Positions 151 through 62,016 of a stretch of 64,000 bases of DNA are shown here, in pieces (the first letter of the stretch is position 1; each line of letters begins with the position of its first letter). The DNA is taken from assembly GCA_029339195.1 (NCBI GenBank), contig JAPTJF010000176.1:1-64000 (forward strand). The letters run 5' to 3'. The notes below the pieces were generated by a model that worked only from the letters and a program-made list of their open reading frames with translations, searched no databases and was not told the origin of the DNA. The DNA comes from Micractinium sp. NFX-FRZ. Taxonomy: Eukaryota > Chlorophyta > Trebouxiophyceae > Chlorellales > Chlorellaceae. The position numbers and the translations under genes were made by a program.

Positions 151-3100
151 GCACAACGTGGAGGGCTGCCGCATCCTGGTCACCGTGCCCGCCTGCCTGG
201 AGATCCTGCTCATGTCGCCCACGGCCCAGGACTGGGTGCGCCGCATCCGCTACACAATCCTGGATGAGGTGCGGGGGGCGGGGCGGGGCGGGGCGGGGGC
301 TACGAAATGGGTTGCCTTGGGTGGGCTGCCTGGGGATGACAGGGGGATGGCGGAATGGAGCGCCTCTGGCAGCTGAGCGTCGCTCACTGTGTGACTTGGC
401 AAACTGGAAGGGGCTTCCAATGTTGGTGCGAGCCCCCCAGCACATCTGGTAGCTAGCATGGCTGGCAGCAGTTGGCAGGTGGCAGTGCTTGGGGCTGCCA
501 AGGCACCCGTGAGAGTGTGTGTGTGGGGGGGGGGACTGCAAGCCAGGGGTTGTAGGCCCCGCGGGTGCTGCAGTATCAGTGGTCACTGCCGGCCTTCCCT
601 CCCCTTGCCTGCAGGTGCACTGCATGCGCGAGGTTCACCTGGGAGAGGGAGGGGCACGCGACGGGGCAGGTGAGCGGGCGCTGCCGCCGCTTGCAGCCGG
701 CTTGCATTGAACCTGAACCCGTGGAGAGTTGGGAGAGAGGCATGCGTGTGCGGGGTGCATGCAATGCGAGATTTGCAGGCGAGAACTTCCGAGGTGCTTC
801 CTGGCGTGGCGTCCAACAGGACACCTCCGGCTGTGAGGTGCCTGTCTGCCGGTGGCAGCTGACTGGTGGTCTTGGCCTACATTCACCTGCAGGTTCCTCA
901 ACCCCACGCCTTTTGGGCTGCGACCTTTTTTTCCTGATCTTCTTTTGCCCCTCCACCGCAGGCTCCATCTGGGAGCACGTCCTGTGCATGCTGCGCTGCC
1001 CCTTCCTGGCCCTGTCGGCAACCATCGGTGAGTCTAACGGCTTACCAATGCGTTGCCGTGCAGGGTGCCGGCAGCAGGGGCCGTGGGTGGGCAGCCAGCA
1101 GCAGCGGCGGCTGTGCCGGCATGCATGGTTGTATGCCACAGTACAATGCGACCACCCTTACTTCTTCATTGCCCAACCCTGCTGACCATATCAACGTACC
1201 TTCCTGTGCAGGCAACCCGGGGGAGTTCCGTGACTGGCTGGGCAGCGTGAAGCAGCTGCAGGCAGAGCAGGACGGTGCCGCCGGGCGGGCGCCCGCCTGG
1301 GGCGGGCGGCGGCACTACGAGGTGCTCCTGATCCAGCACTCTGTGCGGCACTCCGACCTGCGCATGCACACTTACCTGCCCCGCTGCCTGGCGGGGCCAG
1401 GCCAGGCGGAGCAAGCCGAGGGTTTTGAGGCTGGCGCCGGCAGCGACGGCGAGGATGGCATGGGCGACGGCGGCGCCTGGCAGGTGCCGCTGACGGAGCG
1501 GGTGGCTAGTCTGGAGGGCAGCCTGGTGGGCGGCACCCCTGGGCGCGCCGGCAGCGGCGCCGGCGGCGGCGAGCAGAGGAGCGAGCAGGGGGAGGGGCTG
1601 GGGGCGGGGTGCGGCGAGCTGCAACGCATGAACCCGCTGGCCACTTTGGAGATGGAGGATCTGCAGCAGGTGGGTGTCCGCTGGGCTTCCTGGCAGGCAG
1701 TTGGAGGCAGGTGGCCCGACTGGTTTGGCGCAGGAAGGGCCAGGTGGCGGTGGCAAGGCAGCGACAGCCCCGGCCCGCCAAGGCATGCGACATGAACGCT
1801 GCCACTGCGGCGGCTGCCCACACGGGCGTGACACTGGGGAGCCACCCCACCTTCCTGCCTGCGTGCCTGCTCCTCTTATCGCTTGTTCTTCCTCATGCAG
1901 GGCTGCTTCCCGCCTGAGCTGTCCCTGGAGCCAGCTACACCGACATTCAGCCCCGGATGACCCAGTGTCTTTCTCTCCCTCAATGCATCGTGCAGGGCTG
2001 CTTCCCTCCTGAGCTGTCCCTGGAGCCGGTTGATGTGGAGCAGCTGTGGGATGCAATGAGCTCGGCACTGCAGGCCACACAGGCAGGCTCCGCTGGCGGG
2101 CTGGACTGGCACGCCAACGTGAGTGTGGAGTTGGGGAGGTCGGGCTGAGGGAGATTGGGGGCAGCGAGTGGACAAAGCGTGCTGCACTGGCCTTGAGCAG
2201 CGGCGCGGAGCGGCGTAGCAAGCGCTAGGTGGCAGTGAGCGACATCCAGCCATAGCAGGTAGCAGAATCAGCTTGCCAAGGCAAGTCGTTCTGAAGGGGA
2301 TGTGCTGGTCCCACTCAATTTGGGGGGTGACCCTGTGCCCCTTCCTCTCCCCTGCAGGCTGTGGCACAGCTGGAGGCGCTGGCGCCAGAGCACTACTTTG
2401 CTGCTCTCAGCGCCGGCGGCGGCGCCAGTGGCAGCAGCAGCGCTGCCACCAACCGTGGGCCCTTCATCACTCGGCAACAAGTGCGGCAGTATGAGGCCGC
2501 CCTCAAGGCCCTGCTGCTCAGCTGGGCGACAGGCACCGGCAGCGAGGCTGGAGCGCCCGAGGGCCGCGCCGCGGCTGCCGCTGCACTGAGCGCCATCCGC
2601 GAGCAGTGCTACCAGCAGCCGCCGGAGCACGGCGCGATGCTCAAGGTACGCTGGCCCCTCCTGCTGCCTCCCGCTCACCGCCTCCCTCTTCACTGCTGCC
2701 CACTAGCGCACAACCCTGCAAGGAGGACCAGCAGGCCATGGTGGGCCTGTTGCTGGCTGCACCTCCCGCTGCCTCCCCCTCACCGACCTCTCCACTGCTT
2801 CACTTAACTCTGCAGGACGGGCAGGCCATGGTGGGCCTGGTTCTGGACCTGCTGCGCCGCCGCCTGCTGCCCGCCATCGCCTTCAGCTTTGCGCGGCGCG
2901 TGTGCCACCGGCTGGCGGAGGAGATGGTGGAGTACCTAGAGGCAAGCGGGACTGTTGGCCGGCTGGCTGGGCTGGTGCGGGCTGGGTGGCTGGCTGTCTG
3001 GCTGGGCTGCTACGTGCTAAGCGGTCCAATGGGCTGCACTGGCATGGGGACGGTATCGCCCCTGGTGGGTGGTAAGGGTGGCGCCGCCTCTGGAGGTGCA

Positions 3101-6100
3101 GCTGCTCCACAAGCAGATGAGCAGGCGGGAGGCTGAGGTTTTGCTGGCGGGAGGCGCTGGGCTGCTGACTCCTGCCCTGCTGGCAGCGCTGCCTGCCTAC
3201 CTGCCAACCTGCCTGCATCCCATGTGAGCATGCCCAGCCTATGATGCGCACAGGGGACGCAATGTGCTGGAGTGCAGAGGTACCCCTTTCCCCTGACATG
3301 CCCACTCCCCTCCTTTACCAAAGCAGGCATGTTATAAGCAGGCCCCTCTTCCCTGGCATGTGCCCTCCCCTCTCTACCCCAAGCAGGCCTGCGAGAAGCA
3401 GGACCGGGATGTGAACCATGCCAAGTACCGCACGCTGCAGCAGGAGGCGGAGCGGGCGGCCAAGGCAGCCAAGGCGGCCCGCGACCGCAAGCCCGACAAG
3501 CGGCGTGGCGAGGGGCAGGAGGGCGGGCCACCAGAGGACGCAGAGGGCGGCGCTACCTGGGATGCGGAGGCGGTGCTCCCGGAGTTCAGCTTGGCAGGTG
3601 CGTGGACGGGAGTGAAGGGCAGGACTGGATGGGGTGGAGGGCAAAAGGGTGGGGCCCAGCAGCAGCTGTTGGTGTCAGCCAGCCAGCCAGACGAGTAAAT
3701 CCTGCGCCACTGTGTGTTTCTCGGCCGCTGTGTCCGCTCCGTCGCGACCTCCTCACCCCACTCTTCCCGCTTCCTTTCCACGTTCCTTCCAACCTCGCAA
3801 GAAGCCCAACACACGATCGGCAACGGCAGTCGGCGTGGTACTGTAGGGTGCCTCCTCCTCTCCCCCCCATTCCCACCCCGCCTCCTCCTCTCTCCCCCTG
3901 TCCCTCCCCCTTGTCCTGGCCCGCAGGCAAGCCCAAGCAGCTGTCAGCCCAGGAGGTGGAGGAGCTCATCCAGGATGCGGCGGCCTCAGGCGGCATGGAC
4001 GCCACGAATGATCCGCTGGTGCGCGGCCTGCGCAGGGGCATCGGCATCCACCACGGCGGACTGCCCAAGACGTACCGCCAGGTGGGTGAGGGTGTACTGC
4101 AGATGTTTTAGAAGTATGGTGGCGAAACTACCTGCTTGTTCAGATTGAAAAGGATTCCATGTTCATATTCTAGTAGCGAAGTGGTGGCATGTGCAGGGTG
4201 GCAGGGATGGTTGGGGGTGGAGGCACGGGCAGCAGCCAGCTCAGCTCACCACGCCAGTGGCAGGCACGAGGCGGCGAGTAGAGCTCCGTGCAGCCTCCTC
4301 ATCCGTTTCTGTTGAGGTGTGGCCGTGTCTGGCCGCCCCCAATGCGCCCCCCTTTCTCCTGGAGCCCTGCACAATGGTGTCGTTTGCTGAGGTGTCGCTG
4401 TGGCTGACCCACCCCCTTCACACCTTCACCTCCCCCCCACGGGAGCCCTGCGCAGGCGGTGGAGATCCTGTTCCGTGCGGGGCACCTGCGCGTGGTGGTG
4501 GCCACCGGCACCCTGGCCTTTGGCATCCACATGCCCTGCAAGACCACCATCTTTGCGGGGGACCACCTGTTCCTGTCGGCACTCCAGTTCCGCCAGGTGG
4601 GTGGGTGTGTGTGTGGGTGGGTGCCTGCATACAGCAGGGAGGCAGGCCACCTCTCTTCTTATGAGTGCCGCGGTTCCGCCAGGTGGGTGGCGCCACAGGG
4701 TGGGTGGGTGGGTGGGTGCTTGCAACGATTGCACTGGGCTACATCGAGCAGGGAGGCAGGGCAACCTCCTTTTGTCGGTCGGCGCGGCAGTTCCGCCAGG
4801 TGGGGCGCACAGTGTGGGTGCCTCCCTGGAGTGGGGGGAGGGCAGCGTCACCACACAGCAAGGCGCTGCTCAGGCGAAAAGGGCGCCGACCAGGGCAGTG
4901 GCCACTCACGACGAGGGCTCTCCTGCCTTACCTTGACAGTCACTCATCTGTGGGTGCACAGGCACTGAGTCGAGCCCTGTGCCTGCTGCCTCTGCTGCCT
5001 CTCACCGCCCCTGCCCCGCGCCCCGCCTGCGGCCTGCGCCTCCCTGCAGATGATGGGGCGTGCGGGGCGGCGCGGCTTCGACCCTCTGGGCCACGTGGTC
5101 TTCTTCGGGGTTGGGCCCCGCAAGATCCGCAGCCTGATGGTGAGTGGTTTTTTGTGTGTTTTTTGTGTGTTTTGTGTGTGTGTGTGCGTTTTTCTTTTTC
5201 TTTTTCTTTTTTTGGGTTTGACGCCTGGATATGCCATACCAAGGGCTGAGCTCTGCCAGCGGCTGCATGCTGTGCATGCTCAGGAGGAAGCCAGCGCCGG
5301 GGTGCACAAGCATACACTGTGCTGCAGTGTAGCGTGGCATGAAATTGAAGGGTGCACCGCCCACGCTTCCTGCATCAACGTTAAGTGTGCGCTGCCCCTG
5401 CCCCCTGCCCCCCCGCTGCCTCGACCACAGATCTCTCCCGTGCCCCGCCTGGCGGGCCACTTCCCCCTCACCATCACCATGTGCCTGCGGGCGCTGGCCC
5501 TGAACAGCATCACCGCCAGCGGCGGGGCCGCCGCCTCCGGGGCCCGCGGCCTGGTGGGCGGGCGCGGCGGCCGCGGGAAGGGCGGCGAGGCGCCCGCTGT
5601 GGTCGTCCGCGACACCCTGGCGGGGCTCTTCCAGCGCCCCTTTTACGCCGAGAAGGACGCGGGGCTGCTGCAGCAGGTGCAGCATCTGTTCACCTTCACA
5701 ACGGAGTACCTGGCTCGCACCGGCACGATCAACCTGCGGGGAGAGCCGCTGGGTGAGATTCACCCATCCTTGATTAGTGTTTGCCAGGCCTGGGGGCCGC
5801 CGAGTAGACGAGGAGGCGCACCTTCCCTTGTCTATCTGCCTGCCTGACTGCATGCATGCCTGCCTGCCTGTTTGTATCTGTGAGGCCGCCCAGCTGCTTG
5901 CACCAGTAGATGGCGTTACCTTGGTTGCCCGCTGCAGGGCTGGCCAGCATGCTGTGCCACCTGCACTGGACCCACCCTGCTCTCTGCCCTCTGTACTCAC
6001 AACGTCACCCCTCGTTGCCGCCCCGCCCCTGCAGGGCTGGCGGGCATGCTGTGCCACCTGCACTGGACCGACCCCGCCAACATGGCGCTGGCCAGCCTGC

Positions 6101-8607
6101 TGCGCTGTGGCGTCATGGACCAGATCTGCCAGTGAGTGACGAGGGGCGGGCGGCAGGCAGGGGTGTCGGTTGCATGCATGGCGATCTTGCAGAGTGCACG
6201 TGACCTCACACATGCATGCCCCACCGATGCTGCTCTCGCGCTGCTGGCAAGCTGAGAGAGCGCACTGTGTACCCCTGTCTCTCCCTCTCTCCTGTGCAAG
6301 GGGCTCTGCCGAGGGCATGCCGGACACTACTGTACACGCCCTCATCGCTGCCGGGCTTACGGTCATGCCATTGCCCCCCTTCCCTGCGCGCAGGGGCACC
6401 GACGAGGGCATGCCGGACGCTTCCTTTGCGCCCATTGCTAACGCTTGCCGGTGGTAATGATACGCCCCCCTTCCCCTGTGTGTGCAGGAGCGCCGCCGAG
6501 GGCATGACGGACGCCGCCATTGCCTCCTTTGCTGAACGCTTGCCGCTGCTGGCCATGCTCCCCCCCTCCCCCTGTGTGTGCAGGAGCGCGACCGAGGGCA
6601 TGACGGACGCCGCCTTTGCCCCCATCGCCGAGCGCCTGCTGGTGGTGATGTGCCACCTCTTCCAGCGCCTGCCGCTGCGCGCCGCGCTGGCACGGCCCGA
6701 GCTCTACAGGGACTCTCCCTCCCTGGTGAGCCCCACATTGCAGCATGCCACCCCACGTAGCCCTCTACACTGTTGGTGCAGTACATGGCACCGTGTTCTG
6801 CCGTCTAGTGTTCGACAGTTTTGGTGTGTTACAAAGCACTTCCTTTGGTGTTGTACACACCAGTGTGTTCTGCGGCTACTGTTGAGCCTGCTGGCCTGCT
6901 GGCCTGGCTGCCCCGCATCCTGCTTTCCACACACAAAAAAACCTCTGTCCCTGCCCACAGGTGGTCCTCGAGGAGCTGCCTCCCTCTGTGAGGTCTGCCG
7001 TGCACCAGCACAACAGCGAGGCCCTGCACCTCTTCCTGGACTACGTGCGCTGCTACGTGGAGGGGCTGGCGGAGGGGGCCCTGCAGGAGCACGCAGCGCT
7101 GCCGCTGTCCGGCGTCCGCCTGCCCGTGGCGCCGGCGCCGCCGACAGGTGGGTCTCGGGGGCGGGTGTGGTGTGCACATGCCGATTGATTTGCACCCAGG
7201 AGGGCCGGGCCATGACCATGCCCGCTGCCAGGGAACGTGTGCCAGCACGCCTCCCTCCCCTCCGGTGCCTGCCGCATGAGTTGGGCAGCTGCCAGGGAAT
7301 GAGTGCCTCTTCGCCTCCCTCCCCGTTCCTCCCCCCCTGCAGCCGGCGCTCCGGCTCCCACGCCCCCTGCGGAGGACCCCCCTCTGCCAGGCTCCCTGCG
7401 CAGCCTGCTGGCCGAGCAGCGCGTCCGCTACTCGGTGTGCTCCCCCTTTGCCGCCCTGTCGGGGCGGGGCGACGACTTCAGCAACATGGATGACCTGGTG
7501 CGCAGCGTGCGCAGCGGGGTGCTTCTCGACATTGCCACGCTGCCCACTGTGGGCATGGTGGACCGGCACGGACAGGTGAGGGGCATGGCAAGGTGCAGGT
7601 GGGAGTGGGGTGTGCGGTGGGCGGGGGAAGTAGAGGGAGAGTGGGGTGGGCATGGTGGACCGGCACGGGTAGTTGAGGGCGATGGGTGGTATGAGTGGGT
7701 GGGAGTGGGGTGGGCGCGCTGTGGCCACGCTGCGTGGTATGTGCATCGGGTGACTGAGGTCATGATTAACCAGCGCGCCTACATGGGGGTTGCGCAAGGG
7801 CGCGGGTCTTGGGGGTGTGCATTAGGAGGGGCAGAGCATTGGATGGGAGAGATGGAGGGAGCGTGGGTTGGGGGGCGCATGGGCAGGCTGCAGTGCCAGA
7901 GCAACGTGGCGCACTCATATGTTTGTGGGCGTCAAACCGCAACCGCTCAACACAAAACAAACGTTGGCCGTCGCTCCCACTCAGCCGGCCTGCTCCCGGC
8001 CCTGGTCACACCTCACTGCCTCCGACCCCCGCTGCAGGCGGTGCCCCTCAACCGCTACGCCCTCGACTACTGGAAGCACGGGCAGAAGGCGGCGCTGGTG
8101 GAGGCCAACGGGCTGCGGGAGGGGGACGCCTGGCAGGTGGGGCACTGGCCTGGGGTTGCACTGCTGGGAGGGGAGGGGACACATTGGAAGTGTGCCTGAC
8201 GGGCGGCAGCGCAGTTGCGGGAGGCAAACGGACTGAGGGAGGGGCACGCCTGGCTGTTTTCACAGTGCAGTGGTGGGTGGATGCTGGCTGCGGGCAGTGA
8301 GCGCCTGCAGCAAGTCGCAACGGCCGGGGTTGGCTGCGAATAGTGGCCCGTTGCCCGTGCTGCTCCCACACAGGCAGCCAGTCACTGCACCCACACACAT
8401 TGTCATGCTGCCTGCCTGCCCACCGCCCCGCAGGCCCTCTCTGCGTTCTCCGACATCCTGCGGGTGGTGGCCACCGCCCTGGGCCAGCTGGCGCCAGCTG
8501 GCGCCTTCAGCCCCGTGGTGTACTGCATGGACCGCCTGGCGGGGGAGTACGCGGACAAGTTCAAGACGTTCAACAAGTCGGCTCAGGGAGGCAGGGGCGG
8601 CTATTGA
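151..8607 (+). CDS. DDX60-type Ski2-like DExH RNA helicase, C-terminal part (5' end outside window)
   Basis: Superfamily 2 RNA helicase of the Ski2/DDX60 group, which unwinds RNA and in animals acts in RNA surveillance and antiviral sensing. Exons by eye: 151-268, 615-669, 962-1027, 1212-1669, 1996-2118, 2358-2645, 2816-2941, 3387-3597, 3927-4081, 4456-4596, 5050-5139, 5431-5752, 6035-6131, 6584-6725, 6961-7147, 7343-7575, 8038-8136, 8434-8607. These join in one frame to about 1,027 residues ending in TGA. Seen in order: [13 protein letters not shown] (motif Ib region), DEVH box split over the first two exons, LSATIG (motif III), a charged insert, [30 protein letters not shown] (motif V) and [15 protein letters not shown] (motif VI), then a long C-terminal region typical of DDX60. 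Walker A must lie upstream of the window. The intron after 2941 starts with GC. Many introns hold copies of neighbouring exon edges. The family call is firm; a defence role in the alga is not shown. Confidence 0.9.
1896..2027 (+). repeat. Acceptor-side exon echo in helicase intron
   Basis: The acceptor plus exon start at 1991-2027 (tgcag followed by GGCTGCTTCC...) has a close copy at 1896-1932, inside the same intron, differing by about one base in 37. The downstream copy continues into conserved coding sequence ([10 protein letters not shown]), so the upstream one is the decayed or alternative copy. Confidence 0.85.
2655..2860 (+). repeat. About 97-bp tandem duplication across an intron-exon border
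   Basis: About 55 bp of pyrimidine-rich intron plus the exon start encoding QAMVGL occur twice in direct order, near 2660-2756 and 2757-2858. Only the second copy runs on into the helicase exon ([11 protein letters not shown]). Confidence 0.8.
3283..3405 (+). repeat. About 60-bp tandem intron-exon edge duplication
   Basis: The block beginning cccctttcccctgacatgcc near 3284 and ending aagcagg is repeated from about 3341 as cccctcttccctggcatgtg. The second copy contains the acceptor used for the exon at 3387 (CEKQDRD). Confidence 0.75.
4576..4812 (+). repeat. Three donor-side copies of the exon end FRQ|gtggg
   Basis: The exon end and donor (agttccgccaggtgggtg) at about 4584-4602 recur near 4673-4688 and 4790-4805, with looser similarity around them. 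Only the first can join in phase to the next exon MMGRAGRRG without extra sequence; use of the others is not excluded. Confidence 0.8.
5140..5221 (+). repeat. GT/T-rich low-complexity intron start
   Basis: Directly after the donor at 5139 comes a run of T and TG repeats followed by tctttt repeats. It stands out in a GC-rich region. No gene signal; part of the helicase intron 5140-5430. Confidence 0.8.
5931..6082 (+). repeat. Acceptor-side exon echo ([12 protein letters not shown] exon)
   Basis: The sequence ctgcagggctggccagcatg and what follows at about 5933-5980 closely matches the real exon edge at 6029-6076. Both encode [11 protein letters not shown]. The first copy runs into non-coding sequence. 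Confidence 0.85.
6290..6660 (+). repeat. Four tandem copies of one helicase exon start
   Basis: Four copies of acceptor plus exon start lie head to tail, each holding the core gagggcatg(a/c)cgga. They begin near 6301, 6392, 6489 and 6584. In phase with the upstream exon they read [31 protein letters not shown], [19 protein letters not shown] and [19 protein letters not shown]. The fourth continues into the conserved exon. Copy 2 has an in-frame stop; copy 3 is open straight through into copy 4. Copy 1 has a weak aag acceptor. Confidence 0.88.
7548..7680 (+). repeat. Donor-side exon echo (GMVDRHGQ)
   Basis: The exon end gggcatggtggaccggcacg at about 7551-7570 recurs at about 7649-7668, again followed by a ggtag/gtgag-like stretch. 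The second copy is intronic. Confidence 0.82.
8095..8257 (+). repeat. Donor-side exon echo ([12 protein letters not shown])
   Basis: The exon end encoding [12 protein letters not shown] at 8101-8136 has a decayed copy at about 8219-8254 (gaggcaaacggactgaggga...). It lies in the intron that ends at 8433. Confidence 0.8.
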
Positions 8608-9263: not shown

Positions 9264-12200
9264 ATGGGGTGCCCCATGGGCTGCTGGCTATCACTTGTGC
9301 TGGCCCTGGTGCTTCTGCACTTGGAGCAACGGCCAGCACAGGCAGCAACGGTCACAGTGGATGAAGGTAGGCAGGAGTGGCCCGCTTGCTCCGCCCTGCA
9401 CCCCACTTGCTATGGCTGCTTGCTGCCCGCCCCGCGCGCCACCCAGTAACGCCCGCCTGCTGCCCTTGCTACCCATGGCCGCCCTGTCCACCCTGCAGCG
9501 GCAATTATGCGGCAGCTGCGGCTGGCGCTGCACAGCGCAGACGCATCCTGGACTGCCGGCTGGGCGGGGTGGCAGCCCGGCGATCAGCGTGCCCACTGCA
9601 CCTGGGCCTATGTGACCTGCTCGGAGCATGGAGATGTGACCCATCTGTGAGCACACGCCGCCCTGCGTGGCTGGAAAGTGTGTGGACTTTGTGCGACGGA
9701 GTGGGACGGGGCGTGGGGGGTTTTGCAGGCTGGAGAGGGGCGTGGTGGCACAGCAGTGGGTCGCTGGCAGCGGGCTCGGTGCCAGCTGGAGTGTGCGCAG
9801 CACTGCATGGGCAGCCATGAGCATAGATGGCACCAGCCCCCTCCCTGGTGTGCAGGCACCTGGTGGCGCAAGGTCCGATGCAGCTGCACAGCAGGCACAG
9901 CCGGCGCAGCAGCCCCCTTCAGCCTGCGGAGGAGGCCACCCGCAACAGCAGCACTGGGGGCGGCAGCGCGCAAGCAGAGGGCCCTGTTGGGAGCGGCCCG
10001 CTCCTGCCGGACCTAGCGCGGCTCCCGGCGTTGCAAGAGCTCTGGTTGCACAGCAATGCTGGCGTGGAACTGCCACGCGGCTTCCCCATGCAGTGGGGGC
10101 AGCAGGGCGCCTTCCCCCGCCTCACTTGGTGCGTTTGCTGCGTCGGCTTCCCTGGCACTGCCTGCACATGCTTGCAGCTTGCTAGCTCCCATGCCACTCT
10201 TCCTGCCAGTCCTGCCTGCCTGCTTCAATTAAATGATTGATGCAATCAATCATTCAAGTTATAGGCCCCATGGGGAGCCAGCAGCGGCCTGCCTGCCTGA
10301 CGCTGTCCAGCCAGGCAGCGTGCCTTCTGCAGCGTGCAGAGCGTGCACGCCAGCTGCCTGCCTAGCACAGCATGCAAAGTGTGCACGTCAACCGCCTAGC
10401 GCAGCATACACACCCTGCCCAGCATGCCCCTGCCCACCTGCCGCAGGCTGTCCATCCAGGCATTCATGCTGGAGCAGGGTGCGCTGCCAGACATCCAACC
10501 AGGAGCACTGCCCAAGCTGGCCAGCCTGCACCTCAGAATCCCCACACTGCACGCTGCGCTGCCGCCGAGCTGGGGCAGTGCAGGCGTGCTCCCCGCCCTG
10601 CGAGAGCTCTCCCTGGGGCTGGGCTCTCTGGCGGGGCAGCTGCCGCCCGAGTGGGGTGGCAACGGCGGCTTCCCGCGCTTGAGCCGCCTGCTCATATATG
10701 CGGCGGACCCGAGCCATGTCCAGCCGCCGCAGCGTGCGCAGCAGGAGGGCCCGCTGCTGCAGCTGCCGCCCGGCTGGGCCGCAGGCTTCCCCTCCCATCG
10801 CCAGCTCAGCCTGTCAGGGCTGGGCCTCAGCGGCAGCGTGCCGCTCGAGTGGGTCCGCTTTTGGCGCCTGGAACAGCTGTGAGCAAAGCAAGCAATCAAT
10901 CTAGCAAGCAGGGCGCAGCCCAGCTTGTTGTGCAGCCCAGAACCTGCAGCCCTGCGCTTCAAACACCCTTGTCTTTGCATGTTGTGCCCGGCGTGGTGTT
11001 CTGCCGGCTTGCCCCGGCTAGCAAGCACCTGCTCCTGGCCGTGCCCTGCCCTGCATCCCATTGTTGGTTTGACGTGCCCTACCCTGCCCTGCATCCCATT
11101 GTTGGTTTGACGTGCCCTACCCTGCCCTGCCCTGCCCTGCCCTGCCTCAACCCCCACGCCCCTTGGCGGCGCTGCAGAGAGCTGCAAGTCAATGCCCTGT
11201 CGGGGCCGCTTCCCAGGGAGGCGCTGGACAAGCAGTCGGGCCTGAAAGTGTTAAAGGTGAGCCCACGCGTGCGCTTCCTGGTGCCTGCCACTACACGCGG
11301 CAGCAGCACGACCTGCGCCGCGCCCAGCCGACGGGGTGGAAGACCGGGGTGGAAGACTTTCGATGATCTGTGCGCACTCACATGTACGTGACGTCACGCG
11401 TGTGCACTGGCACCACTGCCAGTGCATGCCAGCAGTTGGTGAGGGTCCCGCCAGGCGGTGCCCCATGAGCCGTGTTGCTTGGGACAGAGCTGGGGAAGCC
11501 GGAGATGAGCGCAGCGCAACCACTGCCCCGCTGCATGCTGCCCTGCTGCGTGCTTGCAGCTGTCGGGCAACAAGTTCACGGGGACGCTGCCAGCGGCTTG
11601 GGGTGGCTCCACGCAGGTGCGGAGGCACAGCTGGCAGCTGTGCCCGCTCCACTCCCCAGTTACCACTCCCCAGCGGGTAGCTAGCCCCTGAGGCCCCAAG
11701 GCTGCCGCTGCCAGTGGCAATGCATGCCTGCACTGCCTGCCTCCCTGTGCCCCTTCCTCTCCTCCCCGCCCCGCCCACCAAGCCGACTCGCCTGCCCCTT
11801 GTGTGTGTGCGTGGTTGGTCAAGCAGGCAGAGGTGGTGCTGCTGGCAAACAACTTGCTGGCAGGCCAGGCCTTCCCTTCCAGCTGGACCGCCCCCGGCGC
11901 CTTCGGCACGCTGCTTTCCTTGAATCTCTTGGGCAATGCGGGCCTGGTGGGGAGGGTGCCAACGGACCTCAGCTGGCCCCGCCTCCAGTGCCTGTAAGCC
12001 GGGCCGGGAGCCGCTGCCTGGTGGGGTGAATGAGGCAGAGGTAGCTGCACACGCGACCTCGTGCCCGTACTGCCTCTGCATGCTGCCTGCTGGGAAGCGT
12101 GGGTCAGGCGCTGCCCAGCAAGCTGCGCAGGAGGAGCGCTGAGCGCCACCCAAGGCAGTGCAACGCAACGCAACGCTCTGGCCGCCCCCTCGCTGCAGAA

Positions 12201-16633: not shown

Positions 16634-19600
16634 ATGCGGCGGGAACAAGGCCCGGCGCTGCAGGGGCCAGTGGGAGAGCTTGGCCAGGGGCCAGGTCGGG
16701 CGCTGGCGGCGGCAGGGACGGGCGCACCGAAGGGCGGCGCCAGCAGCGCAACCCCTTCAGCACATGCTTCTGACTCGGGCGCCCGGTCGGCACAGGGGTG
16801 CAGCTGGAACACAGCAAACCAGCAGTCGGCCCAGCCATTGCAGTCCTCGTCTCCTGCAGTTGCAGCCGCGGCGGCAGCGGCAGCAGGGGCGGCAGCAGCA
16901 GCGCCCCAGTCGCAGCAGCGCCGCAAGCCGGGCCGGGTGCCACGCAGCAGCATCCTGTGCCAGGTGAGCCGGGCGACCTCTGTTGGCAGCCTGGGGGCAG
17001 GCACGCTGAGCTTGGGGAGTCGTGCCTGCTTTGCACCCCATACGCCGCACGGCGCCCCGCTGTTGACATCATCTCAACTGCACATCATGCTGTGCAAATC
17101 ACCGAGCCCCTGCCCCATCTCCCGGTGCCCCCCTGCCCAGGTGCCTGCCTGCGGCGCCGAGCTGGTGCATGAGAAGGACTACTTCAGGCGGTACCGCATC
17201 TGCAAGCTGCACTGCCAGCTCAGCAGCCTGGAGGTGGACGGCACGGAGCAGCGCTTCTGCCAGCAGTGCGGACGCTTCCACTGCCTCGGTGAGCGGCGGA
17301 GGGCAGCGGGAGTGGAAACAAAGGCAGCGGGAGGAGTGCAGGGTGGTGGAGGGAGGAGGAGGCAGGCAGATGGGCGGGCAGGCGGTCAGGCACCGCCAGC
17401 TTCATCCTGCCGGCCGGGGCCGAAATCCGCTCACCTCACCCCAGTCTCTCTGCGTCTCAGCCGTGTGCGCCACCGCATGCGTTCTTCTCTGCACTCAGTT
17501 GCCAGCACCGCCTCTCTGCCTGGCCACGTGCCCCCTCTGATGGGTGGGCGCACTCGCCATCCTGCCTTGCCGCCTGGTTTGTTTGTGCAGGCCAGTTTGA
17601 GGGCAGCAACCGGAGCTGCATGCAGAAGCTGCAGAAGCACAATGAGCGGCGGCTGCATGCCAAGAGCCAGGCCAGGAGGGCAGGGGCTGGCAGCCCCCGC
17701 AACAATCCGAAGGTAAAAAGTGCCAGCAGGGGCGGGGATGGGAGCCAGCAGCGCTCAAGTTTGCCCAAGGTCCTCATGATACCGCCTTTGAGATGTGCGC
17801 AAGTGTGCCTCTGGTTGGTGGGGGTGGCCTGGGGGCTGGAAAGCCTGGAGGGGCCATGCTGGGTGCGGTCACGAAGCCTGAGCACTGCTGCTGCCACTGA
17901 TCTGCAGACAGTGCGCGCCACCCTGGTGCCGGAGAGGCGAGGGCAGCAGCAACAGGCTCAGATTGAGGGGCCAGCTGGCGCCAGCTCACACCGTAAGCGC
18001 GCCCGGCTGACACCTGGCAGTGGGGCCCTGGCTGGAAGCATCGGCCCAGATGCGGCAGAAGTCGCGGCGGCAGCAGCAGAAGCAGCAGCGACAGCAGTGG
18101 CAGTAGCGGCAGCTCCAGCACCGGTGGCGCCAGCAGCAGCAGCAGTGACAGCAGCAGCTGCAGCAACGACAGTAGCGACCGCTGCGGCGGCGGCAGCAGC
18201 CGTGGGTGCCCTGCCTGCAGCAGGCCCCGTGGAGCATGCACCAGCCGCAGCAGTACCCACGGCAGGGGCAGCAGTAGAACCATCAGCGGGGGGCGCAGCG
18301 GCAGCAGCCTCGACGGGGGAGGCAGCAGCAGCGGCGGCAGCAGGAGCAACAGCAGCAGTGGTGGCCCGAGGTCAAACAGATGAAGGCATCCCCGGCCATC
18401 CGTCCGAGCGGCCCGAGGCAGCAGCGGCAGGGCCGGCACCATCAGCGGCGGTGGTGCCGGCCTTGCTCCCGCTCCATTTGCAGCTGCTCGAGCCTGGGGG
18501 GCTGGATGTGCAGCTGTCCTCGCTGCTGGAGCCCCTGGCGGCGGCGCTGCTCGTGTCGGAAGAGCAGCAGCTGTGGCAGGCTGCCGAGGCTGCCGCACGG
18601 AAGCAGCTGCCCTCACTGCAGGCCAGCCCCAGGCTCGGCCCGCTGCCCAGCCCTGTGCTGTGGGACCTGCACAGCCTTGACGTGCCGTCAGCGGCGCAGC
18701 AGGCGCAGCAGGCACAGCAGGCGCAGCAGGGGCAGCAGTCGCAGCAGGCGCAGCAGCAGCCCGGGTGGGAGGCGCAGCAGGAACCTTGGGTGCCACCGCT
18801 GCCTGCCCCCCAGCCAGAAAAGCAGCTGCACCAGCCAATGCCCGTGCGTGTACGGCCCAGCCGCACGGGCCTGCGCGCATGCACCTTCACCTTCACGGCC
18901 ACGGCTGCAGAGGGCGGGGCGGAGGGCAGCAGGGCCGGGGCATCGGCGCCCGAAGGCTCCCGCAATCCGGCGCCCCGGGAGTCGCAGGTCGGTGCGCTTT
19001 GCCTGCTTGAGAGGCTGCCCCCCGTCTTGAGAAGCCGATGCCAGGTGGTTCATGAGGCATGCCCCCTGCCCTGCCCTGCCCTGCCCTGCTCGCCCGCCCC
19101 GCCCCGCCCCGCCCCGCCCTGCCCTGCCCTGCCCCCGCAGCCCCGCCCTGCCTACCCACCCCGCTTCTTACTCGCCCGTCGAATCCCTGTCCTGCCCTGC
19201 CTACTCTGCCCAGCCCTGCCTGCCCTGCCTCTCCCCGCCCCTCCCTGCCCTGCCCCGCCCTGCCCTGCCTTGCTCCTCCCTGACTGTTTCTCATCCTCCC
19301 TCCCCATTGCTTCCAACAGTCCATGGCACCCCTGGCGCAACCTGGCCCAGCAATGCATGCAGCTGGCACCGCCACTGGCGCGGCCGTGCAGCCGGCACCG
19401 CGCCCGTGCCGTGCCTCTGCCAACGCCTTCCTCCTCCCCCAGCCCAGCCGTGCCACGGAGCGCACTGCCACGGAGCAGCCCCGGCTGGCAGCGGCGGCGG
19501 CGGCGGCGGCTGCGCCCCTGGAGGGCTTGCCGCCCGCGTCTGCGGCACAGGTGCCGGTGCACCACCCTGCCCCGGGAGGCAAAATTGACGAAGCCTTGCT

Positions 19601-20414
19601 GCTGGAGGTGCTGTGCCCGATCACTCAGGAGCCAATGATGGATCCAGTGCTTGCCCAGGACGGTGCGCATGCTGCCCCGCCTGTATGCACACAGGACCCA
19701 CCAGTTGCCACCTGCTGCCTGCTGCCTCCGCCTGCTGCGTGCGCTGTGCGACCGCTAGCTCCTGCTTCGCACGCTGCGCTGCGGAGGCGGCTCCTCGTGC
19801 CTGCCTGCCCATCGCCTCTGCCGCCCTGCCTCCCATGGCCGCCTTTGCTGTCGGTTGAGTTGCTGCCCCTGCTCTCGCATGATCTACCGCCCTCCTTGTG
19901 CAATGCTGCTGCAAAGCGGGCATGGAAAGGCAACACACCAACCAATTGCGCCGCCATGCATGCCGTGCAGGACACACATACGAGCGTTTCGCTATCCTAG
20001 GTGAGTGTGCCTTGCCTGCCGTGGCCTGCTGCCAAGCAGAACCTGGCCTGTGCCGGCCGCACGCCCTGCACCCGCTGCTGGTTGGATCGGCTGGCTAGGC
20101 CTGGCCGGGGGCTTGCACGTGTGCGGCCCAGCGAGCGCCTGCCTAAGCCGGGCCTGCTGCTAGGCGTATGCACTGCCTCTGTGCATCTTTCTCATTGTGC
20201 GGCAGCTCAACATGTTGCAACATAGCGCACCAACACCTCATACATTGATTGTTTTCCCCCTGGCGCTGCAGGCTGGATGCGCTGCCAGCAAGCGTCGGGC
20301 CAGGCGCCCACCTCGCCCCTCACCAACCAGCCGCTGGCCGACCTGTCGCTGCGCCCCAACATCCTGATTGCGCGCCTCACCGCTCGGCTGCGCGGCACCG
20401 GCCGGCTTCCCTGA
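16634..20414 (+). CDS. SBP-box DNA-binding protein, apparently fused to a C-terminal U-box
   Basis: Exons: 16634-16963, 17141-17288, 17591-17712, 17908-18987 (or to 19044, also in phase), 19320-19662, 19971-20000, 20272-20414; about 731 (or 750) residues. SBP domain near residues 105-185: CQVPACG...YRICKLH and FCQQCGRFHCLG...SCMQKLQKHNERR, with all eight zinc ligands and the basic tail. This is the plant and green-algal transcription factor family binding GTAC cores. A long linker follows, with Ala runs (18056-18370) and a Gln run (18690-18770). The last three exons read LLEVLCPITQEPMMDPVLAQ, DGHTYERFAIL and GWMRCQQASGQAPTSPLTNQ, a clear U-box (E2-binding fold of E3 ligases). The long exon has no in-frame stop and splices in phase to the U-box exon, favouring one gene. 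Alternatively a separate U-box gene starts at ATG 19323. Each domain is certain; the fusion is probable. Confidence 0.75.
18987..19319 (+). other. Pyrimidine-rich linker between SBP and U-box exons (probable intron)
   Basis: The stretch is dominated by ccctgcc and ccccgcc repeats and ends ttccaacag, a good acceptor. Donors at 18987 (CAG|GTCGGT) and 19044 (CAG|GTGGTT) both keep phase 0 into 19320. Whether this is an intron or a very short intergenic region decides if the U-box belongs to the SBP gene. Confidence 0.6.
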
Positions 20415-21225: not shown

Positions 21226-24200
21226 TCAAGCTGCCGTGCTGCTCAGCTGCTGGCTGCACCGCTGCAGCGCCTCAAGCAGGGCCGCCTCCGCCGCCGCCGT
21301 CAGCCGCTTGCTTTCCGCCACTTCTGCCACCGCCGCGGGCGCCGCCGCCGCCACCGCTGCCGCGAGCTCAGCGAGCCGTGCCGCCGCCTGCGCTGGCGGC
21401 GTGCCGTCCAGAAAGCCGCGCTGCAGGGCCAGCAGCTGCACCACTTGCTCCTCCAGCGTCAGGCTTGTGTGGGGGGGCTGGGGGAGGGCAGCGGCCACCA
21501 CTGCGGCCCGCAGGAGCGAGCGCTCGACTGCGGGGTCGTCGATGGAGGCAGAGAAGCGGGCTGCATCCACCGCCTGAGCCAGCTCCAGCCGAACCTGCAA
21601 CGCAGGCGGGAGGGGGGCAAAGGGAGGTCGACGTTTGTGTGTGGAGGGAACAAGGGAGTGGGGTGCTGCACAGTGGGGTTGTTGAAAGGGGGAGGTGGAG
21701 ACGAGTGGCTTGAGTGCCGAGAGAAGCAGACTAGATAAGGGCGAGCAGAGAAGAGGTAGCGGCAGTGCCGGGCTGCATCAACCGCTGCGGGGAGGAAGGG
21801 GGAAGGGGGGTGGGTGGGTGAGGTGAAGAGCCGCCGCAGTGTCATTCCTGGTTTGCCTTCACGCACACATGCAGGCACACATAATTCCACCAAGCAATCA
21901 AGCAATGATACAGCTACAATGTGCCCCCCTCCTCCCCACGGGCAGCACCTCCACGGGCAGGGAAGGAAACGTGTGTCCGCCCTAAGCCCGCCTCGCGCCA
22001 AACACCAGTGAAACACAAAACACATTTTTTTGTGTAGCCTAAAAACTTCGTTTTTTAGATTCCTGGCCAAAAAGCCAGCCGCCGCCTCTCACCAGTGGGG
22101 CCAGCACCTCCATGGCAGGGAAGTACGCGCGCGAGCCGATGCGTGAGATGGACAGCTGCGGGTCAACTGTCACGCCGCCGGTGGCTGCAAGCAAGGGCAG
22201 GGGGACGGTACACAGGGAGGAGGGTGTGGGAGGGTGTGGGAGGAGGCGGTTGGGCATGAGGAGGCCGCTCAGAAGCATGTGGGAGGAAGCGATGGGGCAT
22301 TGGGGGGGGGAGGGGGGGGGTCACCGCCAGCCCATCCGGTGGCTGCCCAAGGGAGAGGAGGCCCACTTTCACCCAGCTGGCACATGATTGGCACAACTGG
22401 CCACCCCCGACACCACCCACCCCCACCCCCACTTCCTTCCTTCACACAGGCAGCCTTCCTACCGCCGCCTCACCTGCATCCCGCCCTGCTTGGAGGACCA
22501 ACCCCCACCTCCTCCCTCAACTATACAACATAGAAACCGGAGCCATGTCTTTCTTGAGAGAACCCCAACCCTTCCACCCACCGCCTCACCCGCGTCGCGC
22601 CCCGCCTTGAGCACCACCTGCCCATCGGTGATGGACATCAGCTCCTCCACCACCTCGGTCCTCAGCTCCTGGGGCCCCAGCTGCCGCCCCGCCCCCGACA
22701 GCTCCTTGGCATCCACAGCAGCCAGCAGCTTGGCCTTCTGGTCGGGGGAGAGGTGCTTGTAGGCCTCGATCTTCTTGCGCGCACGCCGAGCCTCGCCTGC
22801 ACAGGGGGCGGACGGCGGCGGGCGTTAGCACAGGACACAGCAGCTTGAACTGCTGCCTTGGAGGAGAGGGCTTTGTGGGCTTTGGTTCTCTTCCGCCTCC
22901 CGTGCAGAAGGAGAGGGGCTCAAGGGAGTGTGGGCGGGAAGCAGTGTGGAGGATGGTGGCGGGAGAGGCGCGCAGCTTGCCAGCAAGGCGTGCGGCATGG
23001 AGCCCACACAAGCCCCTGCCTGCCCCTGCAGCGCTGCCGCAAGGCATGCGCCGCTGCGGCCTCCCCGTGCCCCCACTCCTGCAAGTGCCCCCACTCCTGC
23101 CGTTACCACCACCCCAGCCACTGTGACCAACCCCTCCTGCGCATGCGCGTTGGCTTCACTGGCTGGGCTCACCGCTGGCGGGCTGCCCGGGCGTGACCAT
23201 GAGCAGCGTCATGGTGCCGCCCCGCAGGCGGCGGTGCATCTTGGCGGCGCGCTGGATGAGGCTGGAGATGAACCTGCAGGGGAGGGAGGAAGATAGGTGG
23301 AGACCATGCACCGGCTTTCAAGGCAGCTGGCAAATGGTGGCAGTGGCCAAACGCAAGGTGGCACGAGGGTGGTTGAGGATGCACCTGCCAGTCAGGAGGA
23401 AGGTAGCAGGCATGCCGACAGGTGAGGCAGAACGGGAGAGAGGGAAGGGCTGGTGCGGCAGCGGGGCAGCAGGGGAGGGCACTCGGGGCCCGCCTGGCCG
23501 GGCCAACTCCACACGCACCTGCAGTCGCTGTCGCCTTCTCACCCTCACAATTGCAACTGTGTCACCGCTGCCCACAACAATCTGCACTCACATTCCGCAA
23601 GTCACCAGCAACCTCCCCCGCTAGTCCACACGCCCTCACCTGCGCCGCTGTGCCGCCGCTGCCGACACCAGCATTCCCTCATACTCCACAAGGTCCTCAG
23701 GTGACTCTGCTGCTGAGCTGGCGCCCTCCTCGTCCGACGCCGCCGCTGAGCTGGCGGGCGGCGCCGCCGCTGAGCTGGCGCCCGCCTCCTGAGCCACCGC
23801 CGTCGCCTTCTGCATCTCCTCCAGGTCGGTCTCGGTGGCTGCCAGGGCGGGGAAGGGAGGGGGAGAGAGAGAGGGAGAGTCAGGCTGCTGGTGATGATCA
23901 TAACAGGGGTGGTGGGGGTGGCAAAGGGAGGCACAAACCAGCCAGCAAAGAAGAAAGCGGGTGCATGAACTTGCGCAAGTCGCTGATGGGTGTGAGGCAT
24001 CAAAAGTTATGGGGCGCGGCAAAGCAAACACGTCTCAGTCAAGTCCTGAGCTCATGTGCACATTGGGCCTGGCGGCCATGGGGCAAAGGGATGGGCGTGG
24101 TGGGAGGGCGGCATGTGTGCGGGAAGGAGGTGGGGGGCGGGGCAAGTTCATGAGCAAGGTGGAACGGGAACAGACATGCGGGCAAGGTGCTGTGCGCTGC

Positions 24201-33800: not shown

Positions 33801-34071
33801 TAGGCCAGCGGCCCGGCGCCAGCGTTCTGCGCAGCCTGCCCGACACTGGCGGCAGCCAGCGGTGGCCTGGGCGCACAGCCGCTGCCTTAGCATGCCCATG
33901 CCTCTGCCCCTCCAGGAGACGGCATGACGGCTGCAGGAGCTGCTCTCACACCCCTGCCCTCTGGTACTCTTCCAGCCGCCGCCAGGGAGCCCCATCTCTG
34001 CCTCCCCCATCGGGCAGCACGCCGCTGGCTGGCGAATGCAGCGTTGCCGCGCCTCCTGGCGCACCTTCATC
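30857..34071 (-). CDS. RPS6: 40S ribosomal protein eS6
   Basis: Component of the small cytosolic ribosomal subunit and, in many eukaryotes, the target of S6 kinase. Eight exons in reverse order: 34066-34071, 33626-33690, 33421-33478, 32822-32914, 31976-32179, 31654-31731, 31263-31412, 30857-30946. They join without a break to 247 residues, against about 249 usual. Seen: [100 protein letters not shown], and a basic C-terminal helix. Coding exon 1 holds only ATGAAG, followed by a 375-nt intron; this start is fixed by the universal MKLN beginning of eS6. The C-terminal tail ends SVASKEA and keeps Ser residues near RRSES. It shares a 533-bp upstream region with the JmjC gene. Confidence 0.97.
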
Positions 34072-34604
34072 GCGCCAGACCGCCTCCAGCTCCTGAAAAC
34101 GGCCAAGAAAAGGACCGGGGCAGGCGGCCGCCGCGGGCTGAGGCCCATGCTGTGGACCCATGGCAGCACGCCAGAGGCTCCTCCCCTGGCTTGGGGTGTT
34201 CAATTTCGGCCCAGATTGCGGACCCATCGTGTAACCTACACTTTGCGTGTTCTTCCCTCAAACCCACGCCGCGAAAGAGCTCGATAACCCCAAAACACTG
34301 CTCGGAAGCCCGGCTCGCACGGCGCGAGGTGCGGGGCCGTTTCCCAACTCCCGAAAGTGATGTCGATACCCGAACAATAGCGGCGACCTTGATTGGAGTG
34401 GGCGACACAGCGTGGGGCACGTCTCCCGTCTTGCAAACTGAACCACGGGGCCCACCCTCGCTGTCGCGCCGCGCAACCGCTTCTGCAAGTGCTTGGCGGC
34501 CATTTGGTTCGAGCGACGCACTGCGCCCTGCTCCCTGGCGCAGGGGTCTCTCAGCGCGCCTGCGGGCGCTGTGGCAACGCTAGTGCGGGCCAGCAGCAGG
34601 CGCC
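34072..34604. promoter_or_regulatory. Divergent upstream region shared by eS6 and JmjC genes
   Basis: 533 bp between two head-to-head start codons, one a highly expressed ribosomal protein gene. No obvious TATA box. No conserved coding sequence on either strand. Confidence 0.6.
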
Positions 34605-45167
<10,563 letters not shown>

Positions 45168-59623: not shown

Positions 59624-62016
59624 TCACTTCTTCTCCTCCCACCACCCTTTCTGCGCGCCGCCCTCGCCGCCGCCCTCGCTGCCCTCGCCGCCGAAGCCAT
59701 GCGCCGCAGCCTCCGGCTGCGGTATCCGCGTGTTGCGTGCCGCGATCCAGTCCAGCCCCAGGGAGTAGGGCCCTGCCGGCTGCAGCTGATCCCCTCCAGC
59801 CAGAGAGATGCCTAGGGAGGTGATGCGCTTGGCATTCACCTCCACCATCTCCTCCACCACCTTGCCCTTCCAGGTGAGCAGGAAGCGGGACAGCGGGATC
59901 TCCACCTCGCTCCACTCGCCCTTGCTGCGGGGACGCAGGGGGGCCAGGGGGCGCACGGAGGCACGCGGGGGGTGGGGGTGGGTGCGCAGCGGGAGGGATG
60001 GAGCTGGCAGACAAAGGGGGGCGTGGGGCAGACAGCAAGGTGCAGCAAGGTCTTGAACGGGGCATGGAAGTTTGAGGATGCGGCTCCCCTGCAGTCATGC
60101 GCAAGCCCCTGCATGCCCACCATCCAGCTCTGTCAGCCCGCTGCCGGTGCTCGCTTTGCAAACCCTGCAGACACCCGCTTTCGCTGCCCCCAACTGACCG
60201 CCCACCACACAATAGGAGGGCTAGCCATGCCGTGCACACAGCAGAACAGCCTGCCCTGCACACAGCGGGAGTTCCATCAGGTGTTTGGCAAGGTGGCCGC
60301 CCAAGGACGGCCCACTCAGCCTCTCCTTTTTCCAAAAGCTCACCGCGCAAACAGGAAAGCCTGCCAGACATCGTGACTCTTCTCGTCCACCAGCCAGTTC
60401 TCGCAGCGGATGCTGGCAATGTACTGCCGCCCATCACCCCGCACCCTGCGGTACAGGCAGGGCCACAAGTGGGAGAGGTGCATCGGCCAGTTTCGAAATA
60501 GTTGCTGGCAAATGCACTGCCCCCCGTCGAACCGCACCTTGCAGTACAATAACGGTGGGACAGGAGGGGGGTGGGGAGCATCAACTGCCGCCTATCAACC
60601 CGCACCCTGTACGGTACACTCAAGGTGGCAAAAGGGGATGGGTGGCAGCATCAGCCGCGCGCGTGCCTTTCAACCCGCCCCAGTGCGGACCCATGAGATG
60701 AAAAGAGGGGGAGAGTGCGAGCATCAGCAGTTCATAAAACCGCCTACCGCCCAGCGCCCTGTGCGGTACAATCGGGGAAGGCAACGGAGGGTGCATGAGC
60801 TGGGCTGTACTGCAGCCACAGCATTCGCACCAGATGCGGTACAACCAAGATGCCCACAGGGGGAGCGCGGGCCGCATGTACTGCCACCTATCACCCCTCA
60901 CCATGCAAGCGCATGGGCGCAGGGGAGAAGGTGGGAGCAGGCATGCTGTGTTGTATTTTCATGCTTGTGGCAGCACAGCAGGACAGCACAGCAGCATGGC
61001 ACAGCAGCACAGCAACACAGAAACACAGCAGCAGCACTGAGGCAGCACTGAGGGTCACAGCAAGCGCTGGCAGGCACAGGGAGGCAGTGGGGCAGACACT
61101 AAGCATGCAGACAGCCTCCCATCCCAGCCCTCCCACCTGGCACCAAATCCAGCAGCGCCCCTGCCCCTGCCTGCGGCCGCATTGTTAACCCCGCACCCAG
61201 ACATCACAGCCCCGCGGCCACTCCAAATGGCAGCCCAGACAGAGCACCTACCTGAACACCAGTGCATCAAAGTCCTCCAAATCCAGCGGCCCCTCTGGCC
61301 CCCGAGGCCGCGTCGTCATCCCAGCAAACCCGCTGCGCCGCAGACGCGCATGCGCATCCTCCCCCACTTCTGTGCTAAAGTTGCCTGCCAGAAGCGCAGT
61401 GCCCTGCGGGACAAGAGTGTATCAGGTGAAGGTTGGAACCAGGCGGGGGCAGTGCCGGCGGGGGAGGAGTGCGGGTGTGCTGGGGGGTAGCCTGGCGGGC
61501 AGGCGGCATGCCTCCGGCGGGCAAGGTTGGGTGTAGGCTGTGGGGCGCAATTTGCGCCCTGCTCACGCTTGCCAACATCACTGGGTTCTGAAATCGTGTT
61601 TCCAGCTTGTATTGACTGCCTGTGTCCTTCCCACTTGCCGACCCCCCCACCTGCTGCTCCTCAGCTGGCTTCAGTTCTGCCGTCGACTTGCCACCCAGCT
61701 CAGCATCTGAGAAGGTGCTCCACTGTGCCAGGTCTTCTGGTGTCTTGAACTGGTAAAGCAGGCGAGAAGCCTCGCCGTACGGGCCCCGGCGTGCTGCGAA
61801 GCAGGCAGGTCGAAAGCGTTCGATGTGGGGAGGCAGGCGGCAGCAGGCGGCAGCGGCGGCAGCAGGGCGGCAGGCGGCGGCTGCACGCAGCGCCGGACCC
61901 TAGCTGCCTTCGCACTCGATCACAAACTTCCTGCGCACTGCGCGAATGCCCGAAAGGTTCCCACCTCGCTCGATAAACTCGTCGGTGCTGCGCAGCAGCC
62001 TCCTGAGGAGCGACAT
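59624..62016 (-). CDS. CIA30/NDUFAF1-type mitochondrial complex I assembly factor
   Basis: Helps assemble the membrane arm of NADH:ubiquinone oxidoreductase in mitochondria. Exons in reverse: 61965-62016 (GT donor) or 61908-62016 (GC donor), 61651-61793, 61252-61403, 60344-60445, 59624-59924; 249 or 268 residues, near the plant-type length. Seen: LLYQFKTPEDLAQWSTFSDA, GGKSTAELKP, FRVRGDGRQYIASIRCENW, SHDVWQAFLFARKGEW, VEIPLSRFLLTWKGKV, GISLAGGDQLQPAGPYSLGL then DWIAAR. This is the galactose-binding-like CIA30 fold in its plant form. A Gly/Glu-rich tail follows. The N-terminus (MSLLRRLLRSTDEF) is short and basic, fitting mitochondrial import. The two donor choices for exon 1 both keep phase; the GT one is more usual. 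The intron between the 61252 and 60344 exons holds many decayed copies of the next exon edge. Confidence 0.88.
60425..60960 (-). repeat. Stack of about six decayed copies of the CIA30 exon start
   Basis: The exon edge on the minus strand (accgcag, then GGTGCGGGGTGATGGGCGGC) at about 60445-60424 recurs, progressively altered, near 60530, 60585, 60675, 60760, 60825 and 60890. Each copy combines a (g)tacngca(a)g-like end with g(g)tgcgg..gat.ggcggcagt. The nearest copy still reads VRFDGGQCICQQLFRNW against VRGDGRQYIASIRCENW. Confidence 0.8.

Follow-up and report, generated by a model that had tools for sequence, protein, structure and literature searches.

A second copy of an exon inside the adjacent intron is the familiar arrangement of tandem exon duplication and of mutually exclusive exons. 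The copies described here, which we call echoes, share with it the presence of exon sequence in the neighbouring intron, but they usually comprise one exon edge, carry no visible coding constraint, and have splice sites that decay. Internal gene duplication, the subject of Gao and Lynch in 2009, is reportedly frequent in eukaryotes and is said to concern duplicated exons and introns in annotated genes; like the echoes it lies within genes, although its units would be unlike decaying copies of exon edges inside introns. Tandem duplication is also a route of intron gain; a 2012 review lists 188 such gains from seven taxa, together with a single demonstration in vivo (PMC3443670). In the potato RdRp gene a stretch spanning intron and exon was duplicated, the branch site, polypyrimidine tract, and 3' splice site were inherited with it, and a new intron was made; an 83-bp tandem duplication within one intron of that gene is mentioned as well (PMC4974935, accessible part). 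The potato case as given there and the echoes are alike in being short direct tandem duplications that carry splice signals, but the former created a new intron whereas the inner copy of an algal echo joins the old intron and decays. Introner elements, which supply introns with sequence throughout a genome and have been reported from green algae (PMC9860276), consist of one element copied into many introns, whereas an echo resembles its own exon alone. Because the intron-gain route is established and the potato case is alike, the kind of event, duplication of a splice border, is known; what is new is how densely it occurs, the spacing found on both sides, and the uncoupling of the exon half from the intron half. 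We found no title or abstract in the open literature on decaying exon-edge copies within introns (subscription journals lay mostly outside the search), and no published count there of border copies left inside introns, which here affect about one predicted intron in ten. An earlier note on this DNA, whose author knew of no description at such density, is in this respect matched by our search.

The window, by which we mean the whole stretch of 64,000 nucleotides analysed from contig 176 of Micractinium sp. NFX-FRZ, is part of a genome assembly of 66,065,352 bases in 838 contigs. Together with 24 stretches of 10 kb (L002-L019 and L021-L026, drawn from 22 other contigs and contig 176; L020, of 124 bp, was left out) it makes up 304 kb, or some 0.46% of the genome; L012 borders on the window, as L002 does on L003. 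Gene models were predicted without RNA by a gene finder self-trained on this sample for codon use and for donor and acceptor matrices, which arrived at an acceptor consensus of TGCAG and at 622 introns with a median length of 237 bp. Both flanking exons were present for 595 of these; 587 were at least 60 bp long and free of N, and 585 did not exceed 1500 bp. The predicted ATP synthase alpha-like protein in the window is 79% identical to that of Micractinium tetrahymenae and 74% identical to its Chlorella sorokiniana counterpart, which marks the alga as a trebouxiophyte of Chlorella type. Among the other models, the one at 30857-34503 on the minus strand encodes what we take to be ribosomal protein eS6, and the one at 16634-20414 predicts a protein rich in alanine and glutamine runs, with a C-terminal end that is presumably U-box-like and a presumed SBP-like zinc domain.

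For the test, 60 bases from the end or the start of each flanking exon were aligned with the interior of the intron, and an echo was called at a score of at least 18, with permuted exon edges, reverse complements, and the exon edges of other introns in the same gene serving as controls. A same-strand copy of the intron's own edge reached this score in 51 of the 585 predicted introns of the window and the 24 stretches (8.7%), with 28 edges downstream and 28 upstream, and permuted edges did so at rates of 0.14% downstream and 0.05% upstream, or about 0.2% overall. The extra exon-edge copies that the earlier note had described are thus borne out across the sampled genome, and the check it had proposed, a comparison of introns with their own flanking exon against shuffled exon-intron pairs, gives, when run with permuted edges, an own-edge excess on the 304 kb. 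Its alternative outcome, a similarity no higher than with unrelated exon edges, is not what we see, as the edges of other introns in the same gene pass at 0.1% downstream and 0.2% upstream. The copies also keep the same orientation, as had been claimed, with no inverted excess over chance (0.0% downstream and 0.2% upstream for reverse complements). Lowering the required score to 14 lets 18.6% of introns through, where chance alone would give about 3%, and subtracting chance at this looser threshold gives, by hand calculation, about 15% of introns with a border copy. When both flanking exons are required to be at least 60 bp long, echoes are found in 41 of 402 introns, compared with a maximum of three in any of 20 permutations.

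The process had been proposed to be general in this genome, and we concur: at least one echo is present in 18 of the 25 sampled sequences, and the window (9.3%) and the rest (8.6%) are alike. The pattern holds genome-wide, at about one predicted intron in ten. Its frequency varies among genes beyond chance (permutation p = 0.014), with the helicase gene described below (seven of 17 introns) at the high end. Usually one edge is copied; both are echoed in five introns, and a second copy of the same edge accompanies 11 of the 69 echoes. The frequency would surprise a specialist in intron evolution, and it makes the rate and fate of border duplications measurable even though the mechanism is ordinary in kind; a genome in which some 9% of predicted introns have readable border duplications would make it possible to date and count the events and to look for their effects on splicing.

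The helicase gene runs in from beyond the window, and its features there are as follows.
151..8607, plus strand: DDX60-like DExD/H helicase gene, 3' part with the start outside the window; 18 exons, 17 introns
1893..1932, plus strand: echo of the acceptor edge 1988-2027; 38/40, spacing 95
2654..2756, plus strand: echo of the acceptor edge 2759-2846 with its intron half; spacing 90-105
3283..3345, plus strand: 60-bp tandem duplicate of 3343-3405, mostly intron, reaching the exon weakly
4667..4687, plus strand: short echo of the donor edge 4581-4601; spacing 86
4778..4804, plus strand: second short echo of the donor edge, 4575-4601; spacing 203
5929..5980, plus strand: echo of the acceptor edge 6026-6077; 47/52, spacing 97
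6299..6328, plus strand: first of three echoes of the acceptor edge at 6582
6371..6457, plus strand: second of the three
6465..6551, plus strand: third of the three, 85% identical to 6561-6647
7646..7685, plus strand: echo of the donor edge 7549-7588; 35/40, spacing 97
8209..8254, plus strand: echo of the donor edge 8089-8134; 37/46, spacing 120

The best named homologs of the predicted protein, at 39-43% identity, come from Apatococcus, Coccomyxa, and Myrmecia; fungal and animal proteins rank next, and those of animals bear the name DDX60; in Pfam, Helicase_C scores above the cut-off and DEAD below it. Clear echoes are present in seven of the 17 introns, with one partial case (3284) and one marginal case (intron 1028-1211, score 17). 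Eight helicase sites had been named beforehand, of which seven stand and that near 3284 stands in part, being mainly an intron-only duplication of 60 bp. At the site near 2716, positions 2724-2756 match 2814-2846 at 29 of 33 bases with a spacing of 90, and the intron half 2654-2680 matches 2759-2785. The donor edge copied near 4673 and 4790 reads GTTCCGCCAG up to the border and GTGGG beyond it, and its copies are 18-27 bp long. Three echoes and the real exon edge make up the site at 6301-6489, with spacings of 93, 94, and 96, and the third echo takes in 23 bp of the intron tail. Beyond the echo at 7646-7685, similarity in the intron picks up again at a spacing of 100.

Joined without the echoes, the 18 exons form one open frame of 1038 aa, and five of the seven echo junctions align to at least one of three algal homologs without an echo-sized gap (the other two, 2645/2816 and 6131/6584, show poor conservation and alignment and carry little weight). 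With the frame open and those five junctions free of echo-sized gaps, there is no sign of the echoes in the protein. Frame and homologs place the helicase echoes within single introns, with no new intron created; elsewhere that placement rests on predicted gene models. The gene finder put a false micro-exon at 4791-4799 in intron 4597-5049 and called the echo at 6394-6450 an exon, which is why automatic counts for this gene differ from hand counts, and which is a caution for gene finders in general.

Outside the helicase gene the pattern recurs in the window, as had been stated, with echoes at a score of at least 17 in introns 21595-22092, 23274-23639, 38876-39161, 39384-39670, and 60446-61251 (two).
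21940..21965, minus strand: weak echo of a donor edge; 23/25, spacing 159
23557..23601, minus strand: echo of the donor edge near 23648-23692; 33/45, spacing 91
39061..39093, plus strand: echo of the acceptor edge 39164-39196; 27/33, spacing 103
39438..39486, plus strand: weak echo (score 17) of the donor edge before 39384; 36/48, spacing 105
60481..60538, minus strand: echo of the acceptor edge near 60388-60445, with a second copy in the intron; 44/57, spacing 93
61143..61180, minus strand: weak echo (score 18) of a donor edge; 30/35, spacing 134

Two sources of repeated sequence unrelated to splice borders have to be considered. That introner-like or other mobile elements fill the echo introns would be in keeping with the reports of introners from green algae (PMC9860276), but each echo resembles its own exon and not the exon edges of other introns, and we regard mobile elements as a most improbable source. 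A DNA search of window positions 1200-4600 (six complete introns) against the genome, skipping simple repeats, matched the introns nowhere else, the one other match being a 47-bp stretch of coding region. Among the 587 introns only 12 intron-intron pairs were obtained at E<=1e-6, 28-70 bp long, six of them involving a single L010 intron and one a duplicated gene region. Introners or paralogs as the source of the echoes were accordingly set aside, with no repeat family found and introns rarely alike. An intronic repeat cluster at L018 9604-9765, with a 64-bp tandem pair (92%) and inverted-repeat-like ends (AGTGGCAGGCTT...AAGCCTGCCACT), is possibly a small mobile element.

Errors of assembly are the other source, and one window repeat is of this type: an identical run of 77 bases flanks the 100-N gap at 50753-50852 (50676-50929 overall), and since the same 77 bases stand on both sides of the gap, the apparent perfect repeat with a spacing of 177 bp (50676/50853) is an artefact and probably represents unmerged contig ends. 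The echo pairs, however, have diverged, by a mean of 16% in the exon part, the introns tested are free of N, and the echoes are spread over 18 of the 25 sequences, so that we give next to no credence to an assembly origin for them.

The anatomy of the echoes is regular. Of the 69 echoes, the 37 at acceptor edges have a median spacing of 107 and the 32 at donor edges one of 109.5, and 49 of the 69 fall between 80 and 135 bp compared with 23% under uniform placement (p ~5e-17). Four acceptor-side cases with spacings above 200 were omitted from the codon, intron-half, and splice-site tests, and one further case from the test of intron-half similarity, which leaves 64. The exon part is 17-60 bp long with identities of 71-100%, at least 95% in 13 of 64, corresponding to a divergence of 0-29% with a mean of 16% (83.6% identity). 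Introns with echoes are longer than others by a mean of 72 bp (95% interval 34-112) and a median of 82 bp (interval 53-123), in line with the earlier suggestion that introns lengthen by this process, here by some 70-80 bp.

Differences between echo and exon are spread over the codon positions as 143:122:146, in 842:834:828 sites (2504 in total), and because the three positions have changed about equally, the echoes look like neutral debris. The synonymous share of the changes is 0.324, compared with 0.267 expected, and the base-change spectrum implies, by hand calculation, about 68% G+C at equilibrium, the introns having 64%. Splice dinucleotides are retained at 17 of 28 echo borders for AG and 16 of 23 for GT/GC, compared with about 0.70 expected from the 83.6% identity. 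The notion that the echoes are in truth exons, alternative or duplicated, that have been mistaken for intron therefore seems very unlikely to us, with changes about equal over the codon positions and the helicase frame complete without any echo. Some echoes do retain strong acceptor or donor scores, and stop-making changes are few (3 of 411 against about 13 expected if neutral), which is the one hint of constraint. Spacings that are a multiple of three can be cited on the same side at acceptor edges (14 of 27 with spacing up to 140), although that in-frame excess is weak and is absent at donor edges (9 of 27). Codon positions give a coding reading no support, and the proposal that exons multiply by this route finds none either, the differences being even over codon positions and the splice dinucleotides kept as neutral decay predicts.

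We think it rather likely that short tandem duplications across splice borders left the echoes behind and that the outer copy keeps the mRNA intact. A duplicated unit, mostly of about 80-135 bp, would by chance straddle a splice site and leave two exon edges, each with a splice site. If the outer copy were still spliced, the mRNA would be unchanged; the inner copy would turn into intron and decay neutrally while selection held the exon copy constant, and the intron would gain about one unit per event. Duplications internal to an exon would be lost unless the protein tolerated them. Those internal to an intron would survive but fade about twice as fast as border copies, because both of their copies drift. 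Repeated events would give rise to arrays such as those of three or four units that are present at window 6299-6647 and L019 5892-6313. We infer that the duplications arise by fill-in of staggered breaks or by replication slippage, and that the outer splice site is the one used in genes other than the helicase. The echoes would then account in concrete terms for intron growth and would also supply decoy splice sites.

The duplication reading predicts a copied intron half, and at an empirical p of at most 0.04 the intron half is similar in 25 of 64 echoes. Similarity extends over much of the unit at L019 5892, L024 5285, L022 2963, L026 8728, window 6451, and window 2646, in agreement with the earlier statement that the copies include intron bases. 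However, for echoes selected on exon bases 10-60 (24 at acceptor and 22 at donor edges), the intron side has dropped to an ungapped identity of 0.3-0.4 by about 20 bp from the border, the baseline being 0.28. Neutral unit-length simulations were restricted to spacings up to 140 and intron parts of at least 30 (52 and 47 echoes). In the first set the real intron half is weaker than simulated, with a mean percentile of 0.24 and 31% of cases below 0.05. In the second, 11 of 47 echoes have an exon identity of at least 0.94, and their intron half scores 0.21 per base compared with 0.66-0.67 predicted, the most decayed class scoring 0.17 per base. If all echoes were old, 2.0 of 47 would be expected at this exon identity rather than the 11 observed (p = 3e-6). 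Plain young tandem duplication for all echoes is thus contradicted for the best-preserved ones. The tandem-duplication route put forward in the earlier note survives in its direct copies, their spacing, the longer introns, and the intron half in 25 of 64, and falls short in the decayed intron half of the best-preserved echoes.

These best-preserved echoes invite the reading that a block of 30-60 bp spanning the edge was inserted about 35-70 bp from the border, by routes such as template switching or polymerase-theta-like templated insertion, and that a unit-length duplication never existed. The 11 with a weak intron half fit it, as do near-perfect blocks that are sharply bounded with unrelated spacers: 1893-1932 (38/40), L011 3891-4077 (43/47), L023 419-655 (30/33), and L014 8673-9030 (58/60). 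The rest of the intron holds nothing comparable for the first two and one weak 17-bp match for L023 419-655; at 1893-1932 no other direct similarity reaches a score of 10 except one 18-bp match from upstream exon to intron. Yet the sharply bounded blocks show the same spacing (93-132) as the full-unit cases, and the intron half is similar in 25 of 64. Templated insertions are expected to be often inverted, and an inverted excess is absent. The median gain of 82 bp (53-123) accords better with a unit than with a 40-bp block, although the interval of the mean (34-112) reaches block size. We consider such spaced copying possible but on balance unlikely.

Repeat pairs were collected with our own diagonal scan, which replaced a BLAST-based scan that gave no pairs at spacings below 50. 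In an ungapped scan of the 304 kb, fresh intron-only duplicates of 15-64 bp are common, but there is only one fresh full-length duplicate at spacings of 70-140, at window 6462-6535 (spacing 96), a point also in favour of spaced copying. This single case counts against the plain duplication model because a steady process should leave more. It also qualifies the earlier view that copying is recurrent, which the divergence of 0-29% and the second copies at 11 of 69 echoes support. At spacings of 60-150 and identities of at least 0.8, copies that include exon outnumber intron-only copies 56 to 17, compared with 1.2 to 1 expected by opportunity, or roughly 1.6-2.3 to 1, by hand estimate, once the faster fading of intron-only pairs is allowed for. 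Picked by the intron half, about a dozen pairs lie at spacings of 60-140, a small set in which several have an exon counterpart and several do not. A characteristic mutation size of about 100 bp is not established genome-wide, since intron-only pairs are mostly 20-60 bp; by reasoning, the spacing peak at borders may result from a size spectrum that falls off combined with the requirement that a unit reach into exon and intron alike.

The discordance between halves could also arise if the duplicates were old, with the exon block and splice site kept by gene conversion from exon to echo, or by selection for a role in splicing, while the intron half drifted. At L024 5285, L009 2715, and L019 5892 the exon half is 100% identical over 23, 27, and 33 bp, and the intron half next to it is at about 70-77%. 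At L019 5892-6313, where two echoes precede the real acceptor edge and the nearer equals the exon over 33 bases with a diverged tail, the two echo tails are by eye about as close to each other as the nearer tail is to the exon's own, which suggests maintenance. A third-position excess is absent, and conversion would erase such an excess. On the other hand, the discordance is clear at few loci, and low-complexity intron tails may simply change faster, by slippage. Selection on the echo is not visible, since the differences are spread over the codon positions and the splice dinucleotides, retained in 17 of 28 and 16 of 23 cases, have been lost about as often as under neutral decay. Maintenance of this kind we judge rather improbable as an account of the echoes, although the subset with a near-perfect exon block and a decayed intron half may owe its state to exon-to-echo gene conversion or to shorter copying.

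The two departures can be combined in a bolder and, we think, unlikely proposal, namely that splice borders in this lineage are hot spots of a distinct process that copies 30-60 bp of edge with its splice site about 100 bp into the intron, where conversion then keeps it. If true, exons would keep feeding almost functional splice sites into the introns beside them, so that new splice sites and exons were always in supply. Our reading of the data is instead that tandem duplication, filtered by splicing, is the principal process, and that part of the echoes either persist longer than it explains or stem from a second mode that makes shorter copies.

Other tandem repeats in the sample differ from the border echoes. 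A 52-bp tandem array lies within an intron at L011 4638-4768. Perfect tandem duplicates of 44 and 38 bp, at 53819-53910 and 11044-11130 in predicted non-coding sequence of the window, are a sign of recent short tandem duplication, of a size unlike the usual echo spacing. At 50026-52600, exons that are cysteine-rich as read are repeated together with their introns at spacings of about 245-336 and with up to 95% identity, in what appears from the sequence to be a tandem duplication of whole exon-intron units, distinct from the border echoes.
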